Source: Cercospora beticola
Lineage: Eukaryota > Ascomycota > Dothideomycetes > Mycosphaerellales > Mycosphaerellaceae
Direction of reading: 5' to 3'
DNA length: 64,000 bases
NCBI RefSeq assembly: GCF_033473495.1
Contig: NC_088938.1
Location: forward strand, 1 to 64,000
The stretch's first letter is position 1, and each line of letters opens with the position of its first letter. The translations under genes were made by a program, and so were the position numbers. Positions 57,855 to 63,633 of the stretch are shown piece after piece. A model generated the notes under the pieces. It was not told where the DNA came from. It saw only the letters and a program-made list of their open reading frames with translations, and did not search any database.

Positions 57855-59360
57855 CTACAAAGGCTTTCCACCAATGAAATCACTCCACCTCCTCACCTCC
57901 TTGGGAATACCTTCCTTCTTTGGCAACTTCTCACTCATACACTGCGCAAACAAAACGGCAGTCCTTGGCTCCATGAAAAGCGGATGACCAAAGTCCACAG
58001 CATTGCGACGCATGACATAATCCTCATCGGTCATACTGCTAGCCCTCCTCTTGGCCAAGTTGAAAACACCACGAATATCATACTTCTCAAAGACCTGTCG
58101 AAGTTCCTGCTTGTTGTCCTTGGGGAACTCAATGACTTCGACATTGACAGATCCATCCTTGGAAGTGCTCTCAAGGTGCTTCTTGATTTCGTGGTTGGCA
58201 GCGTAGAGCTTGTAGCCGAGAGGGTTGAGGTAGTCGACAATCTTGCCGAGGTCTTCGGTTTGAGTGTCACCACCGAAGAGGAGACCCTCACCAGGTTGAG
58301 GAACACGGAAGTTCATCATACTTTGTACAGCAGTCCAGTAGGCCTCAACGAGATCAGTACCGAAGCAAGCCATCTCACCAGTGGAAGACATCTCGACGCC
58401 AAGGTATGGGTCAGCACCAGCGAGACGAGTCCAAGCGAATTGAGGAACCTTGACGGCGAGGTAGTCGCGCTGGACCTCCATGAGATCGACGGGCTCTGGA
58501 ACATCCTTGCCGAGAAGGGCACGAGTGGCGACATCAATGAAGTTGGTTCCGAGGACCTTGCTGACGAATGGGAAGGAACGAGAGGCACGCAGGTTGCACT
58601 CGATGACCTTGAGGAGTGGCTCACCACCCTCTGGGTTCGCAGCAGAGATGATTTGCATGTTGAAAGGACCAGTAATCGACCAAGCCTTGGCGACCTTTTG
58701 AGCGATCTCCTTGACACGCTCGATAGTGCGCTTTGGCAGGTTGGCAGGAGGAAGGATCAAAGAAGCGTCACCAGAGTGGACACCAGCGTTCTCGACGTGC
58801 TCAGACACCGCGTGAACGAGTAACTTTCCATCGTGTGCCACACCATCGCAGTCGATTTCCTGAGCGCCCTCAATGAACTTGGTGATAACAACTGGGTGGT
58901 CACCGCTGACTTGGCTGGCCGCAAGAAGCTTCTCCTCGAGCTCTTCTTCAGAGCGGATAACAGTCATGGCCGCACCAGAAAGGACGTAAGATGGACGGAC
59001 AAGGACCGGGTAGCCAACCTGTTCAGCGAATGCCTTGGCATCGTTGTAGTTGGTGAGTTCCTTCCAGGCAGGCTGATCCACTCCGATAGATTCCAAGATT
59101 TGCGAGAACTTCTGCCTGTCTTCGGCCTTGTCGATATCCTCGGGGTTGGTACCAAGCACCTTGGCCTTGCCAGTTTCCTGGAGCTTGAGGGCAATGTTCT
59201 GTGGCAGCTGGCCGCCCACAGAGACCACAACGCCGGAAGCACATTCCATTTCGTAGATATCCATGACACGTTCGTAGCTGAGCTCTTCAAAGTAGAGACG
59301 GTCGGGAACGTCGAAGTCTGTGCTGTACGTCTCGGGATTAAACGGCACGGTTGTTAGCAT
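57855..59360 (-). CDS. Carbamoyl-phosphate synthase large chain, C-terminal part
   Basis: Continues the CPS large chain from the conserved NPETYSTDFDVPDRLYFEEL to the C-terminus (about 496 family residues). It holds the rest of the second ATP-grasp domain (PVLVRPSYVLSGAAMTVI, EIDCDGVAHDGK, VIECNLRASRSFPFVSK) and the allosteric MGS-like domain at the end. The first family residues abut an in-frame ATG (59360; MLTTVP then FNPET). No AG dinucleotide lies in the roughly 50 bp before NPET, so a normal intron acceptor is missing. A CT-rich stretch precedes the ATG as in fungal leaders. Either this half is translated separately from 59360, or a non-canonical acceptor joins it to the upstream half. 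The reaction (second phosphorylation, carbamoyl phosphate release) needs both halves. Confidence 0.88.
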   Translation of the reverse strand: MLTTVPFNPETYSTDFDVPDRLYFEELSYERVMDIYEMECASGVVVSVGGQLPQNIALKLQETGKAKVLGTNPEDIDKAEDRQKFSQILESIGVDQPAWKELTNYNDAKAFAEQVGYPVLVRPSYVLSGAAMTVIRSEEELEEKLLAASQVSGDHPVVITKFIEGAQEIDCDGVAHDGKLLVHAVSEHVENAGVHSGDASLILPPANLPKRTIERVKEIAQKVAKAWSITGPFNMQIISAANPEGGEPLLKVIECNLRASRSFPFVSKVLGTNFIDVATRALLGKDVPEPVDLMEVQRDYLAVKVPQFAWTRLAGADPYLGVEMSSTGEMACFGTDLVEAYWTAVQSMMNFRVPQPGEGLLFGGDTQTEDLGKIVDYLNPLGYKLYAANHEIKKHLESTSKDGSVNVEVIEFPKDNKQELRQVFEKYDIRGVFNLAKRRASSMTDEDYVMRRNAVDFGHPLFMEPRTAVLFAQCMSEKLPKKEGIPKEVRRWSDFIGGKPL

Positions 59361-59755
59361 GGGTACAACAAGTGTAAGATGGGTACAAGTATCAAGTGTT
59401 TGTGTGAGTGAAGTGAAGAAAAAGTGAAAATCATTAGTGCCTCCGACGGTCTCTCCCTCGCCAGCTATGTCTCTAGTGACGCTCATGACCAGACAGATCG
59501 GCAGTTATTCAGAAAAAGATGAACCCAGATGAAGATATTCCATGTGGTTGCCAGTGTCTCCGACATTCCCGCCAGCCCATCCATGCCCGGAGTCACCTCC
59601 ATGACCAGGCACAGACGCAAGCGTGCAGAGAAAGGTGGAGATTGTCCAGAATGATGCGCAGGAATGTGTTGCTCAGATGCATTGCATGCATCGTGTAAGA
59701 CGTTGGACAGTGGACAGTGTCCAGGTGTTGAGCAGTGTAGTCGTGACTGGTATAT

Positions 59756-59778
59756 CGTGTAACACGTTGAAGAGTGTC
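59756..59778. repeat. Direct repeat, left copy (nested gene flank)
   Basis: CGTGTAACACGTTGAAGAGT then GTC. It matches the copy at 61046-61068 at 20 of 23 positions in the same orientation. It ends 3 bp before the stop codon of the nested gene. Confidence 0.6.
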
Positions 59779-59781
59779 GAC

Positions 59782-60936
59782 TCATTCAGCCTGGTTGAAA
59801 GAGTCGTCGTCGTCCTCATCCTCAGCTTGCTCGGCAGCCTCAGCGGCAGCCTTGAGCTTCTCCTGGTGACCGTTCGTCTTGCAGTGACGAGTGAAGTTGC
59901 TCTTGTTGGCGGACGGCATATTGCAAAGACCGCAGAAGAATGGTGACAGGTGCTTGTTCAGCATTCTCTCGTGCTTGTCGGACACCATGTGGTCATCGTA
60001 GACCTGCTTGGATTGGAAAGCGATACTGCAGTCGTCGCACCAGTACTTCTTCGCTGCAATGTCTCTCTTAATACGGGCTCGCTGGGTATCGGCATGCATC
60101 TTGGGATTGAGCTTGCGTGATTTCTGAACGCGGCGAACTGAGGCATCCATGTAGTCGGAGTAGTTGGTTTCCATCTGCTTGTGATGCCAGTTGGTAGCAT
60201 TCTCCGCCTTCAGTTTGATGCGTTTGGCCTCACGTGTCTCGCCGAGTGCCTCGAGTTCTTCTTGTGTAAGGTCAAAGTCGCCGCGGATGCCTTCATCGAG
60301 TGCGCTGTGTGAACATAGACCGTTATACTCCAGACTGTGGCGGTCCCACGGGCAAATATGAGACAGGCCGAAATCTCGCCCGCGGCGCTTAAATGCCCAG
60401 AAGACGTAGGAGAAGACAGCTTCGAACCCAATTATAAAGAGGCGGTATAGTGGGACGAGGATAAAGATTGGTCTTGGTATCCAGCAAAGCATGCCCTTGT
60501 GTATAATGACGAAACCCGCGTCGAGAGAAGCTGCGACGTAGCGCGGGAGAAGAAGGAAGTTATCGTATTGTTGCATACGCTGTCGTGCACCCTGTTCAAA
60601 GGACGTCGCGGATCCGATGTAGACTCTGAAGCGCCTGCCGGGTTTGTACAGAACGAGCAAGTAGCAAGACCAGATATCCTTCAGAAAGTCTTCATTGGTC
60701 GGGAGAGTCTTGAAGAAGTCGACGGTAGGCAAATTGGGTCCAACGAGTAACTCGTACAGGCCAGGTGCAAAGGTCATGCCAGTAGTCTGGGCAGCAGCTT
60801 GGACACTGTCTAGGCTTGTGAAGTAATGATCAAAGAGCGGGTTCTTGTGTGCCATGTCCGTGCCTGTGAGTACGCCGAAGAACATGTTGCACATGAGCAG
60901 GAGCATTGCCGCAACTGTGGCGGTGGTGCCAGCCAT
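59782..60936 (-). CDS. GIY-YIG-like and zinc-finger protein nested in the CPS gene
   Basis: An intronless frame of 384 residues from ATG at 60936 (good CCAACATGG context). A hydrophobic N-terminus (VAAMLLLMCNMFFGVLTG) is followed near residue 90 by SCYLLVLYKPGRRFRVYIGS and a downstream Arg (QGARQRMQQYD), the pattern of a GIY-YIG nuclease core with YIG intact and GIY degenerate. A second hydrophobic stretch and the conserved-looking CPWDRHSLEYNGLCSHS follow. Two U1-like C2H2 fingers end the protein (CDDCSIAFQSKQVYDDHMVSDKH and CGLCNMPSANKSNFTRHCKTNGH), then an acidic tail. I recall similar multi-copy proteins in Pezizomycotina but no assigned function. Its place inside a housekeeping gene suggests a homing or selfish element, an inference. 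Confidence 0.75.
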   Translation of the reverse strand: MAGTTATVAAMLLLMCNMFFGVLTGTDMAHKNPLFDHYFTSLDSVQAAAQTTGMTFAPGLYELLVGPNLPTVDFFKTLPTNEDFLKDIWSCYLLVLYKPGRRFRVYIGSATSFEQGARQRMQQYDNFLLLPRYVAASLDAGFVIIHKGMLCWIPRPIFILVPLYRLFIIGFEAVFSYVFWAFKRRGRDFGLSHICPWDRHSLEYNGLCSHSALDEGIRGDFDLTQEELEALGETREAKRIKLKAENATNWHHKQMETNYSDYMDASVRRVQKSRKLNPKMHADTQRARIKRDIAAKKYWCDDCSIAFQSKQVYDDHMVSDKHERMLNKHLSPFFCGLCNMPSANKSNFTRHCKTNGHQEKLKAAAEAAEQAEDEDDDDSFNQAE

Positions 60937-61045
60937 GTTGGCGGCAGTAGATTGATTGGAGCTGTGCAACGTGTTAGACGTTTCAGCCAGGCGGAAAAGA
61001 GCGCTCTGTCCTTACTCACCTTGAAACGAGTGTATCTGCGCTCAA

Positions 61046-61068
61046 CGTGTGACACGTTGGATAGTGTC
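61046..61068. repeat. Direct repeat, right copy (nested gene flank)
   Basis: CGTGTGACACGTTGGATAGT then GTC, same orientation as the copy at 59756-59778. A partial third copy with ACGTTGGACAGTG lies at 59699-59712. Confidence 0.6.
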
Positions 61069-61602
61069 CGGCGCTGCGCAGCGCGCTGTATTGATCTTGT
61101 GGCGAGTGTGCGGCGACGGTGGGATGGTGGTGGAGGGAGGTGGTGGTGGATGTGCGACGACAAGTCCGCGAGAAGAGCGTCAGGGTGGAGGTACAGGACC
61201 ACCCACCACCTTCCTGCCATGTTGTGGAAGGTGCTCCAGGCAGAAACCTAGTGAGGGAAGGCACGTCGCGGAAAGTGCGCCTTGGTCCATGGTCCAGTTC
61301 ATCCAGTGAGCGAAGTCACGTCTGGCAGGTGCTCCGAGCAAATATTCCGGCAGGTGGCGGGAGAGACGTCGGAGACAGCGTGCACAGTGGGTTATGGGCT
61401 AAGTGAGGGATTTGGGGGTGGGGTGTCAACTGAGGATGGACTGGATACTCGGTCGCCAGAAGGAATGCCTTTCTCCGAGGACAGAAGTGTTTTTCTGCTC
61501 ACCATGTCGCCACCAGGCACAAATGCGAAGTGGAAACACGACGAATCGGAGATGAGACAACCATCTAGCGACGACGAGTAGAAAACGAAATAGTGTACTC
61601 AC

Positions 61603-63633
61603 GTTAATCATAATCGTCCTCTTGCCCTGCTCCTTTAGCGAGAGCGTAGCGTTCACAGCACACCAATCGAACTCAACCGAGCTTCCAATACGGTAAACAC
61701 CAGATCCAAGAACGATAATTCCCTTGTCGTCGAAAGTTACATCGTGGCTGGAAGCATTGTAAGTCGTGTAGAGGTAGTTAGTGTCAGCCGGGAATTCAGC
61801 AGCCAGAGTATCAATTCGCTTAACCCAAGGCTTGAGGCCAAAGTTCTTGCGGCGGGCACGAACTTCGTCTTCAGTAGAGTTGACAGCGCGAGCGATCTGC
61901 TTGTCGCTGAAACCTTGCTTCTTAGCCTTGAGCATGAGTTCCTTCTTGACGCCGAAGAGAGATCCGATGGCTTCGAGTTCCTTGGTGGTGTCGACGATGT
62001 TTTGAATCTTGTACAGGAACCACTTGTCAATCTTGCTGAGATCGTGCACCTTGTCGACAGAGTAACCCTCGTGGAGCATAGCTTGACCAACAGCGAGCCA
62101 GCGGCGATCGGTGGGGTTCTTGAGCACTTCATCCAGATCCTCGAACTTGTCACCCTGGAGACCATCGAACTTGGGATCGACTTGACGAATAGCCTTTTGG
62201 AAAGATTCCTCAAAGGTACGACCGATAGCCATGACCTCACCGATAGACTTCATGGAAGAGCCAATGTTGCGGTTGACATTCTGAAACTTGACCAAATCCC
62301 AGCGAGGAATCTTGGTAACGATGTAATCCAGCGAAGGTTCGAAGTTGGCAGTGGTGGTGCGAGTGACGGCATTGGGCAGTTCAGGCAGAGTGTGACCGAG
62401 ACCGATCTTCGCAGCAGTGTATGCCAGAGGGTACCCAGTAGCCTTGGAAGCGAGAGCAGAGGAACGAGAGAGACGGGCGTTGACCTCGATGACCCTGTAG
62501 TCGAGTCCATCGGGCTGGAGAGCGTACTGAACGTTACATTCTCCAACCACACCCAAGTGACGAATGATCTTGATAGCAGCAGTTCGCAGCATGTGGTACT
62601 CCTCATCGCTCAGCGTTTGAGAAGGCGAGACGACGATGGAGTCACCAGTGTGCACCCCCAGAGGGTCGAAGTTCTCCATGTTGCAGACCGTGATACAGTT
62701 GTCCGAAGCGTCTCGCACGACCTCGTACTCAGCCTCTTTCCAGCCCTTGAGAGATTTCTCAACCAAGATCTGAGGAGACAGAGTCAGAGAGCGAGCAGCC
62801 ATGTTTCGAAGCTCTTCTGGGTTGTCGGCGAAACCTGAACCGAGACCACCAAGTGCGAAAGCAGCTCGCACAATGATGGGGTATCCGACTTCCTCAGCAG
62901 CCTTGAGAGCATCCTCGACAGTCTCGACGGCAATACTCTCGGCAATGGGGATGTTGATTTCCTTGAGGGCCTTCGCGAACAAGTCACGATCCTCGGAAGT
63001 CTTCAGCGTCTGCACGCTTGTGCCGAGCACCTTGACGCCGTATCTCTCGAAGATTCCCATCTCATCCATCTTCACACCCAAATTGAGGGCGGTCTGACCA
63101 CCAAAGGACAGGAAAATGCCATCTGGCCTCTCTTTCTCGATCACGTAGGTGACATATTCGGGTGTGACTGGGAGGTAGTAGACCTCGTCGGCGAGCACGT
63201 GGGAGGTCTGGATGGTAGCGATGTTGGGGTTGATGAGCACGGACTTGATGCCGGCTTCTTTGAGAGCTTTGAGAGCTTGCGAGCCGGAGTAGTCGAACTC
63301 GCCGGCCTGGCCAATGGAGAGACCTCCAGAGCCGATGACGAGGACTTTGTTAACATCGACGAGGTCTTGTCCGCCGGCGATAGCGCCGCTCTCGAGGTAT
63401 GCTTTGGCATTGGGTGCCACGTCGGCCTTGCTGGCAGCGCGTTTGGCGGAGCGGGCAAAGCTGCGGACCTGAGTCTGCGCGTGCTTCGCAGCTGGCTGTT
63501 TGGCTGTGCAGCGTGCAACAGGCTTGGTGGTAAGGGTTCGTCGAGCTATGCGGGGAGCATTTTGCTTGATGGAGGAGTGGAAGAGGTCGTGGTGCAGCTG
63601 GCGGGCGAATCGCCCACTGACAGCGGCGGCCAT
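61603..63633 (-). CDS. Carbamoyl-phosphate synthase large chain, N-terminal part (mitochondrial, arginine-type)
   Basis: 677 codons from ATG at 63633 (CCGCCATGG context) to the donor after TIMIN. The first 75 residues are Arg/Ala/Ser-rich with few acids, a mitochondrial presequence, which marks the arginine-pathway enzyme rather than the URA2 fusion. The carboxyphosphate ATP-grasp domain follows ([71 protein letters not shown]), then the oligomerisation domain. The start of the second synthetase unit is last ([20 protein letters not shown]). The frame runs on for about 60 unrelated residues if unspliced. With the downstream half it totals about 1170 residues, normal for fungal CPS. It makes carbamoyl phosphate with the glutaminase small chain. 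Confidence 0.93.

Follow-up and report, generated by a model that had tools for sequence, protein, structure and literature searches.

We analysed a 64,000-nucleotide window at the start of contig 4 of the Cercospora beticola genome (NC_088938.1), in which the gene for the arginine-specific large chain of carbamoyl-phosphate synthase (CPS; cpa2) is interrupted by a segment that carries a gene of its own. An earlier interpretation made from the letters of the window (the sequence-only reading) had placed the cut between MIN and NPET, and this was borne out: exon 1 ends in ...TIMIN, and the coding sequence resumes as FNPET on the far side of 2,260 nucleotides. The first exon encodes a mitochondrial-type leader, the first synthetase half, the oligomerisation domain and the start of the second pre-ATP-grasp domain. 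When joined, the two exons form a stop-free frame of 1,172 codons, and among six relatives compared, full-length identity was 95.8% to the Cercospora zeae-maydis protein (P0100) and 93.3% to P0101. A search of the whole genome (36.07 Mb in 10 contigs) found one arginine-type CPS.

The codon between NCBIfam TIGR01369 positions 595 (exon 1) and 597 (exon 2) is TTT. A total of 7,944 CPS relatives passed E <= 0.001; among the 120 of these that were listed, the residue at this place was Y in 116, F in two, D in one and an anomalous reading in one (P0215), and N-Y-N-P-E was read in 116 of the 120. The anomalous relative, from Cryoendolithus, has MIN-LTPPM-YNPET, suggesting that gene prediction coped poorly with an intron there. 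We also observed that the final residues before the site (61603-61626) are GKRTIMIN; GKKTVMIN was present in 90 of 117 sequences counted, and the only other occurrence of KRT among the 117 was in P0215, the same relative whose model is anomalous. The GKRTIMIN variant may reflect co-conversion or target resistance.

The interrupting segment contains an intact gene of 384 codons on the same strand as CPS. Judged by its modelled structure and Pfam matches, the product is a homing-endonuclease-like GIY-YIG enzyme with C2H2 zinc fingers. The AlphaFold2 model had a mean pLDDT (predicted local distance difference test) of 92.9, and the closest structural match of its middle domain was the catalytic domain of the GIY-YIG homing endonuclease I-TevI. 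Tyr92, Tyr106, Gly108, Arg120 and Glu172 are kept, with the GIY motif reading SCY; we take Y92, Y106, R120 and E172 to be the Tyr, Tyr, Arg and Glu of the GIY-YIG catalytic motif. C-terminal to this domain lie the fingers, for which PF12171 (31 bits) and PF12874 (23.6 bits) passed their thresholds and PF25095, at 23.5 bits, fell short of its own (27.7). The full same-strand gene with GIY-YIG-like and zinc-finger parts described by the sequence-only reading is upheld by the intact frame, the fold match and the Pfam matches.

The PF01541 profile had no match in the nested protein at E <= 1, was absent among the 25 of 81 families listed for 34 family members, and found only C7:854487 when run against the genome; a miss at this level is compatible with a GIY-YIG fold and does not exclude it. 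A profile comparison of the nested family with T4 I-TevII gave no match. In PHROGs, the nested protein matched one zinc-finger family and two families of unknown function only, and among the 25 of 72 families listed for the 34 members, one member matched an HNH endonuclease family (E 0.015) and two matched NinG (best E 1.1). The GC content at third codon positions (GC3) was 0.651 in the nested gene and 0.644 in CPS exon 1. Immediately 5′ of the nested ATG lies a candidate 58-nucleotide intron, which, if real, would point to a nested transcript whose 5′ leader is spliced. Separately, copies of a near-palindromic CGTGTNACACGTTG-like motif flank the nested gene at 59690-59712, 59754-59776, 60962-60980 and 61044-61066. 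The genome holds five exact matches to the motif on both strands, three of them within the arginine CPS intron, where two overlap on opposite strands; these copies could be cassette ends or regulatory sites.

The intervening sequence has a GTGAGT donor and a branch-like GCTAAC, and its tail is free of AG for 98 nucleotides, a length with a chance of about 0.008 given the insert's own AG frequency, tempered by a 112-nucleotide AG-free stretch elsewhere in the same insert. No group I or group II intron family was matched by Rfam cmscan at E <= 1 over L007, L016 and L009 (19,895 bases), where the sole match was a sub-threshold mycobacterial small RNA, and a ribozyme intron was rejected on this ground. 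No micro-exon restoring the missing Y-N-P-E is present in the intron. TTAA occurs at both junctions, but an insertion with TTAA duplication was rejected by reasoning, since the restored site would miss two conserved residues. A search for further DNA copies of the arginine CPS intron found none, and as it also missed the paralogous tail described below, it was insensitive.

The pyrimidine CPS paralogue (C5) carries an intron at the identical phase-0 position. This intron is 240 nucleotides long and free of an endonuclease gene, reads GTAAGT...GCTAACAACGACCAAG, and ends in AG where the arginine intron has CG. The tails of the two introns are homologous, with 108 of 131 ungapped columns identical, 24 gap columns and the final seven nucleotides of the arginine intron outside the alignment; the local alignment score of 60 compares with a maximum of 29 in 300 simple shuffles and 28 in 400 random window segments. 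An upstream match (61372-61421) was marginal, scoring 31 against the shuffled maximum of 29. Third codon positions of the paralogues near the site matched at 58 of 150 (35 of 90 on the 5′ side and 23 of 60 on the 3′ side, the latter being the first 60, beyond which register is lost, with 1 and 4 of 15 matching and left uncounted). Because tail identity lies far above third-position identity, the intron sequence seems to have been shared much more recently than the paralogues diverged, which suggests transfer of the intron itself from one to the other. Recent gene conversion of the exons was rejected, as third positions show no increase in identity close to the site. On the simplest reading of the alignments, one and the same intron would have reached both paralogues, with the pyrimidine copy lacking or having lost a cassette that spans about 59499-61371 in the arginine intron.

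The sequence-only reading had proposed a genome search for other copies of the 384-residue protein, and protein searches with three queries found them. A second copy with an open reading frame lies at C9:1023570 inside the pyruvate carboxylase gene (exons by TIGR01235), whose junctions read ...CYSGDFL, GTGAGT..., ...CTCAG and NPKKKYNLEYY, a GT..AG intron by sequence. The frame of this member stops about 20 nucleotides short of the 3′ splice site, next to what resembles a branch site. No DNA alignment between the CPS and pyruvate carboxylase introns rose above shuffles. Decayed pieces were located at C7:1470398, C3:3816602 and C3:3099205, the last of them a weak match, at E 0.036 for the window protein as query and 1e-7 for P0003, and no host gene split around these pieces was seen in the reading frames listed. 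A single genome holds intact, impaired, decayed and endonuclease-free copies.

Table. Features of the interrupted arginine CPS gene and of related copies in the same genome (window positions unless a locus is named)
Feature	Position	Strand	Remarks and basis
Arginine CPS large chain (cpa2), exon 1	61603..63633	-	Ends ...TIMIN; Pfam, PDB alignments, TIGR01369 positions 4-595
Arginine CPS, exon 2	57855..59342	-	TTT AAT CCC GAG (F-NPET...) through stop codon; Pfam, PDB alignments, TIGR01369 positions 597-1052
Intervening sequence, 2,260 nt	59343..61602	-	Donor GTGAGT at 61602-61597; branch-like GCTAAC; CG at 59344-59343
Nested gene, 384 codons + stop	59782..60936	-	Open reading frame, homologues, family alignment, structure model, fold match
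GIY-YIG nuclease domain (predicted)	60301..60678	-	Residues ~87-212
Two C2H2 zinc fingers	59860..60048	-	Residues 297-322 and 333-359
Candidate 58-nt intron 5′ of nested ATG	60962..61019	-	GTGAGT...CTAAC...CACAG; sequence only
Tail homologous to pyrimidine CPS intron tail	59350..59498	-	Local alignment score 60
Putative endonuclease cassette	59499..61371	-	No counterpart in the 240-nt pyrimidine intron; from two local alignments
Second family member, pyruvate carboxylase intron (C9)	L016:4984-6036		Open frame; conserved Arg replaced by Gly
Decayed pieces of nested gene	L017 4357-4857; L018 4603-4998; L019 4706-4951		Contain or bounded by stops

We then examined the family in other fungi. A plain protein search with the nested protein returned 89 proteins, the query included, of which 10 bore an organism name: Hortaea, Elasticomyces (twice), Cephalotrichum, Colletotrichum, Flavoplaca, Cadophora, Fusarium, Pleopsidium and Lipomyces, presumably all ascomycetes. 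By their source labels, both Elasticomyces entries are cpa2 and the Pleopsidium entry is aconitase. Mis-joined gene models were sought with a query made of CPS exon 1 as padding plus the nested protein, with the nested part alone scored, and eight long proteins emerged from 8,000 candidates. Placements in these species rest on gene models, in which exact splice points are not fixed. Colletotrichum pyrimidine CPS models stop at TIGR01369 position 595 or 596 and continue into the nested family; a Pseudogymnoascus model has the nested family first and then pyrimidine CPS from position 596, which puts both genera at the site used in the window; and in a Blastomyces model (P0095) pyrimidine CPS follows the family from position 599, near the same site. 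In Glarea (P0091), a family member stands upstream of a CPS exon starting near position 527, with an extra anomaly at the MIN site. Other members occur in pyruvate carboxylase of Oculimacula, where the model halts near TIGR01235 position 396, in aconitase of Elasticomyces and Pleopsidium (TIGR01340 positions 415 and 251), and in a Lachnellula gene named GCN1 by its source. Odd joins at or near the NYNPET site were noticed in the public CPS models of Glarea (P0091), Blastomyces (P0095) and Cryoendolithus (P0215); such joins suggest further unrecognised introns or acceptors at this site.

A tree of 98 family members, built by a quick method, contained a 27-row clade with an SH-aLRT (Shimodaira–Hasegawa-like approximate likelihood ratio test) support of 99. 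In it fall the five CPS-site rows without exception, together with the CPS row of Glarea and one of the two Elasticomyces cpa2 rows; the five rows that come from pyruvate carboxylase, aconitase or GCN1 all lie outside it, and 85 rows of the tree carry no label. The five CPS-site rows, two of which are near-copies from Colletotrichum, did not form a single clade (3 changes compared with a shuffled mean of 4.1, with 98 of 500 shuffles as low). Outside the fungi, 19 pattern matches in viral contigs yielded no confirmed relative, and prokaryote genome contigs gave no pattern match.

Taken together, we consider it very probable that the insert is a spliceosomal intron which carries a homing-endonuclease gene and occupies an invariant position in nuclear arginine CPS, similar to the 'shintrons' of mirusviruses. 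We favour this interpretation because a nuclease is combined with zinc fingers, the insertion falls at invariant codons, the same site recurs across species and paralogues, and copy states are mixed. The sequence-only reading had entertained a mobile nuclear intron bearing a GIY-YIG-like gene, and support for it comes from the fold, the use of the same CPS site in other fungi, the pyruvate carboxylase copy and the paralogue tail homology. DNA recognition, cleavage, homing, copying and the splicing of this copy are what we infer, homing by comparison, from the tail homology and the same-site recurrence. As a mechanism, the zinc fingers and linker of the nested protein would recognise the conserved N-Y-N-P-E-T codons in uninterrupted CPS alleles or paralogues, and the GIY-YIG domain would cut there. 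Repair templated by a filled copy would then copy in the whole intron, and its excision from the pre-mRNA by the spliceosome would let the enzyme survive. With less assurance, we lean towards the view that mobile spliceosomal introns with GIY-YIG/C2H2 homing endonucleases are widespread in ascomycetes, where they would invade invariant housekeeping motifs, jump between CPS paralogues, lose the endonuclease and persist as short introns.

One real problem weighs against a spliceosomal intron: where the homologous acceptor has AG, this intron closes with CG, so that splicing of this copy is presumptive. CG acceptors are very rare. Use of the first AG downstream would delete F-N-P-E, the nearest AG upstream breaks the frame, and the nearest two in-frame AGs would lengthen the protein by 36 or 38 residues. 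The CG may be a base error, a non-canonical acceptor or the mark of a damaged copy.

Among the alternatives, the most durable, although unlikely, is an ordinary old spliceosomal intron common to both CPS genes that on one occasion took in a nuclease gene, unrelated or domesticated. Both paralogues do carry an intron at the same phase-0 site, and intron positions can be very old. However, the excess of tail identity (108/131) over third-position identity (58/150) makes the introns look much younger than the gene duplication, and the recurrence of the nested family at conserved sites of several unrelated genes contradicts the case, put forward by the sequence-only reading against itself, of an ordinary ancient intron and a nested gene without ties to other insertions. 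The N-Y-N-P-E reading in 116 of the 120 listed relatives also speaks against it, though a spliced model would read alike.

That CPS is truly split, with an N-half ending soon after MIN, a C-half starting from the ATG at 59360 (MLTTVPFNPET...) and an independent gene between them, appears very improbable. The sequence-only reading had raised the origin of a split CPS, which gained no positive support, though the expected acceptor has no AG, open frames run past the break in both halves, and an in-frame ATG lies 18 nucleotides upstream of exon 2. Against this, the break would land within a pre-ATP-grasp domain, a strong donor and a branch-like site are what an intron would have, the paralogous intron has an AG end at the same place, and with a single arginine-type CPS found in the genome both halves would be needed. 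An assembly error, likewise foreseen by the sequence-only reading, or a consensus error has a slighter chance still. The general rarity of CG acceptors and the AG of the paralogous copy favour a base error in a real intron, which would only strengthen the case for a homing intron; a misplaced insert is unlikely given the same-site insertions in other species and the similar GC3. Least credible is a non-selfish host nuclease that serves some other function and came to be nested by accident: its intact frame, its host-like GC3 and the established role of other GIY-YIG proteins (Slx1) in repair count for less than the features that typify homing endonucleases, since the family is diverging, has left decayed copies in this genome and sits time and again at conserved positions of genes.

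It has long been asked how spliceosomal introns arise and move. Introners and stwintrons are spreading spliceosomal introns, and neither is known to depend on an encoded homing endonuclease. If the wider view of such introns in ascomycetes is true, it would provide a cellular, protein-driven route of spliceosomal intron gain. A fungal family whose filled, endonuclease-free and decayed copies coexist in one genome would open spliceosomal intron homing to bench tests. It would also account for the faulty gene predictions and the short introns that occur at conserved motifs in CPS, pyruvate carboxylase and aconitase.

In open-licence PMC literature (titles and abstract starts, with bioRxiv and most subscription papers outside this range), we found no report of spliceosomal homing introns in cellular protein genes. 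Spliceosomal introns with homing endonucleases appeared there in mirusviruses only, and the term 'shintron' in one paper, which describes spliceosomal splice sites together with endonuclease genes (GIY-YIG in 132 of 334) and calls such an association previously unobserved (PMC12768974, Nat Microbiol 2025). The family described here resembles shintrons in its endonuclease-bearing introns, its target-gene preference and the lack of a group I/II RNA signature, and differs in residing in a cellular fungal nuclear genome, in metabolic housekeeping genes, and in its C2H2 fingers. The nearest fungal nuclear cases that we found are the WHO elements (PMC7282813) and a telomeric RecQ insertion in Ustilago maydis (PMC7593156). 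WHO elements and HO of yeasts likewise represent a fungal nuclear homing element at a housekeeping gene (FBA1), join a nuclease to zinc fingers, and mix intact with decayed copies; the WHO proteins, however, are intein-zinc finger fusions, in an element that keeps the host gene whole by 3′-end replacement and duplication rather than by an intron (PMC7282813). The U. maydis case also places a GIY-YIG homing endonuclease within a fungal nuclear protein gene, but it is a single insertion of mitochondrial origin, judged non-functional, that truncates its host and does not lie in a spliced intron (PMC7593156). Finally, unlike I-TevI and the other GIY-YIG homing endonucleases of group I introns in phage T4 and fungal mitochondria, the nested gene has exon-like GC3 and C-terminal C2H2 fingers, and its host intron looks spliceosomal rather than ribozymic.

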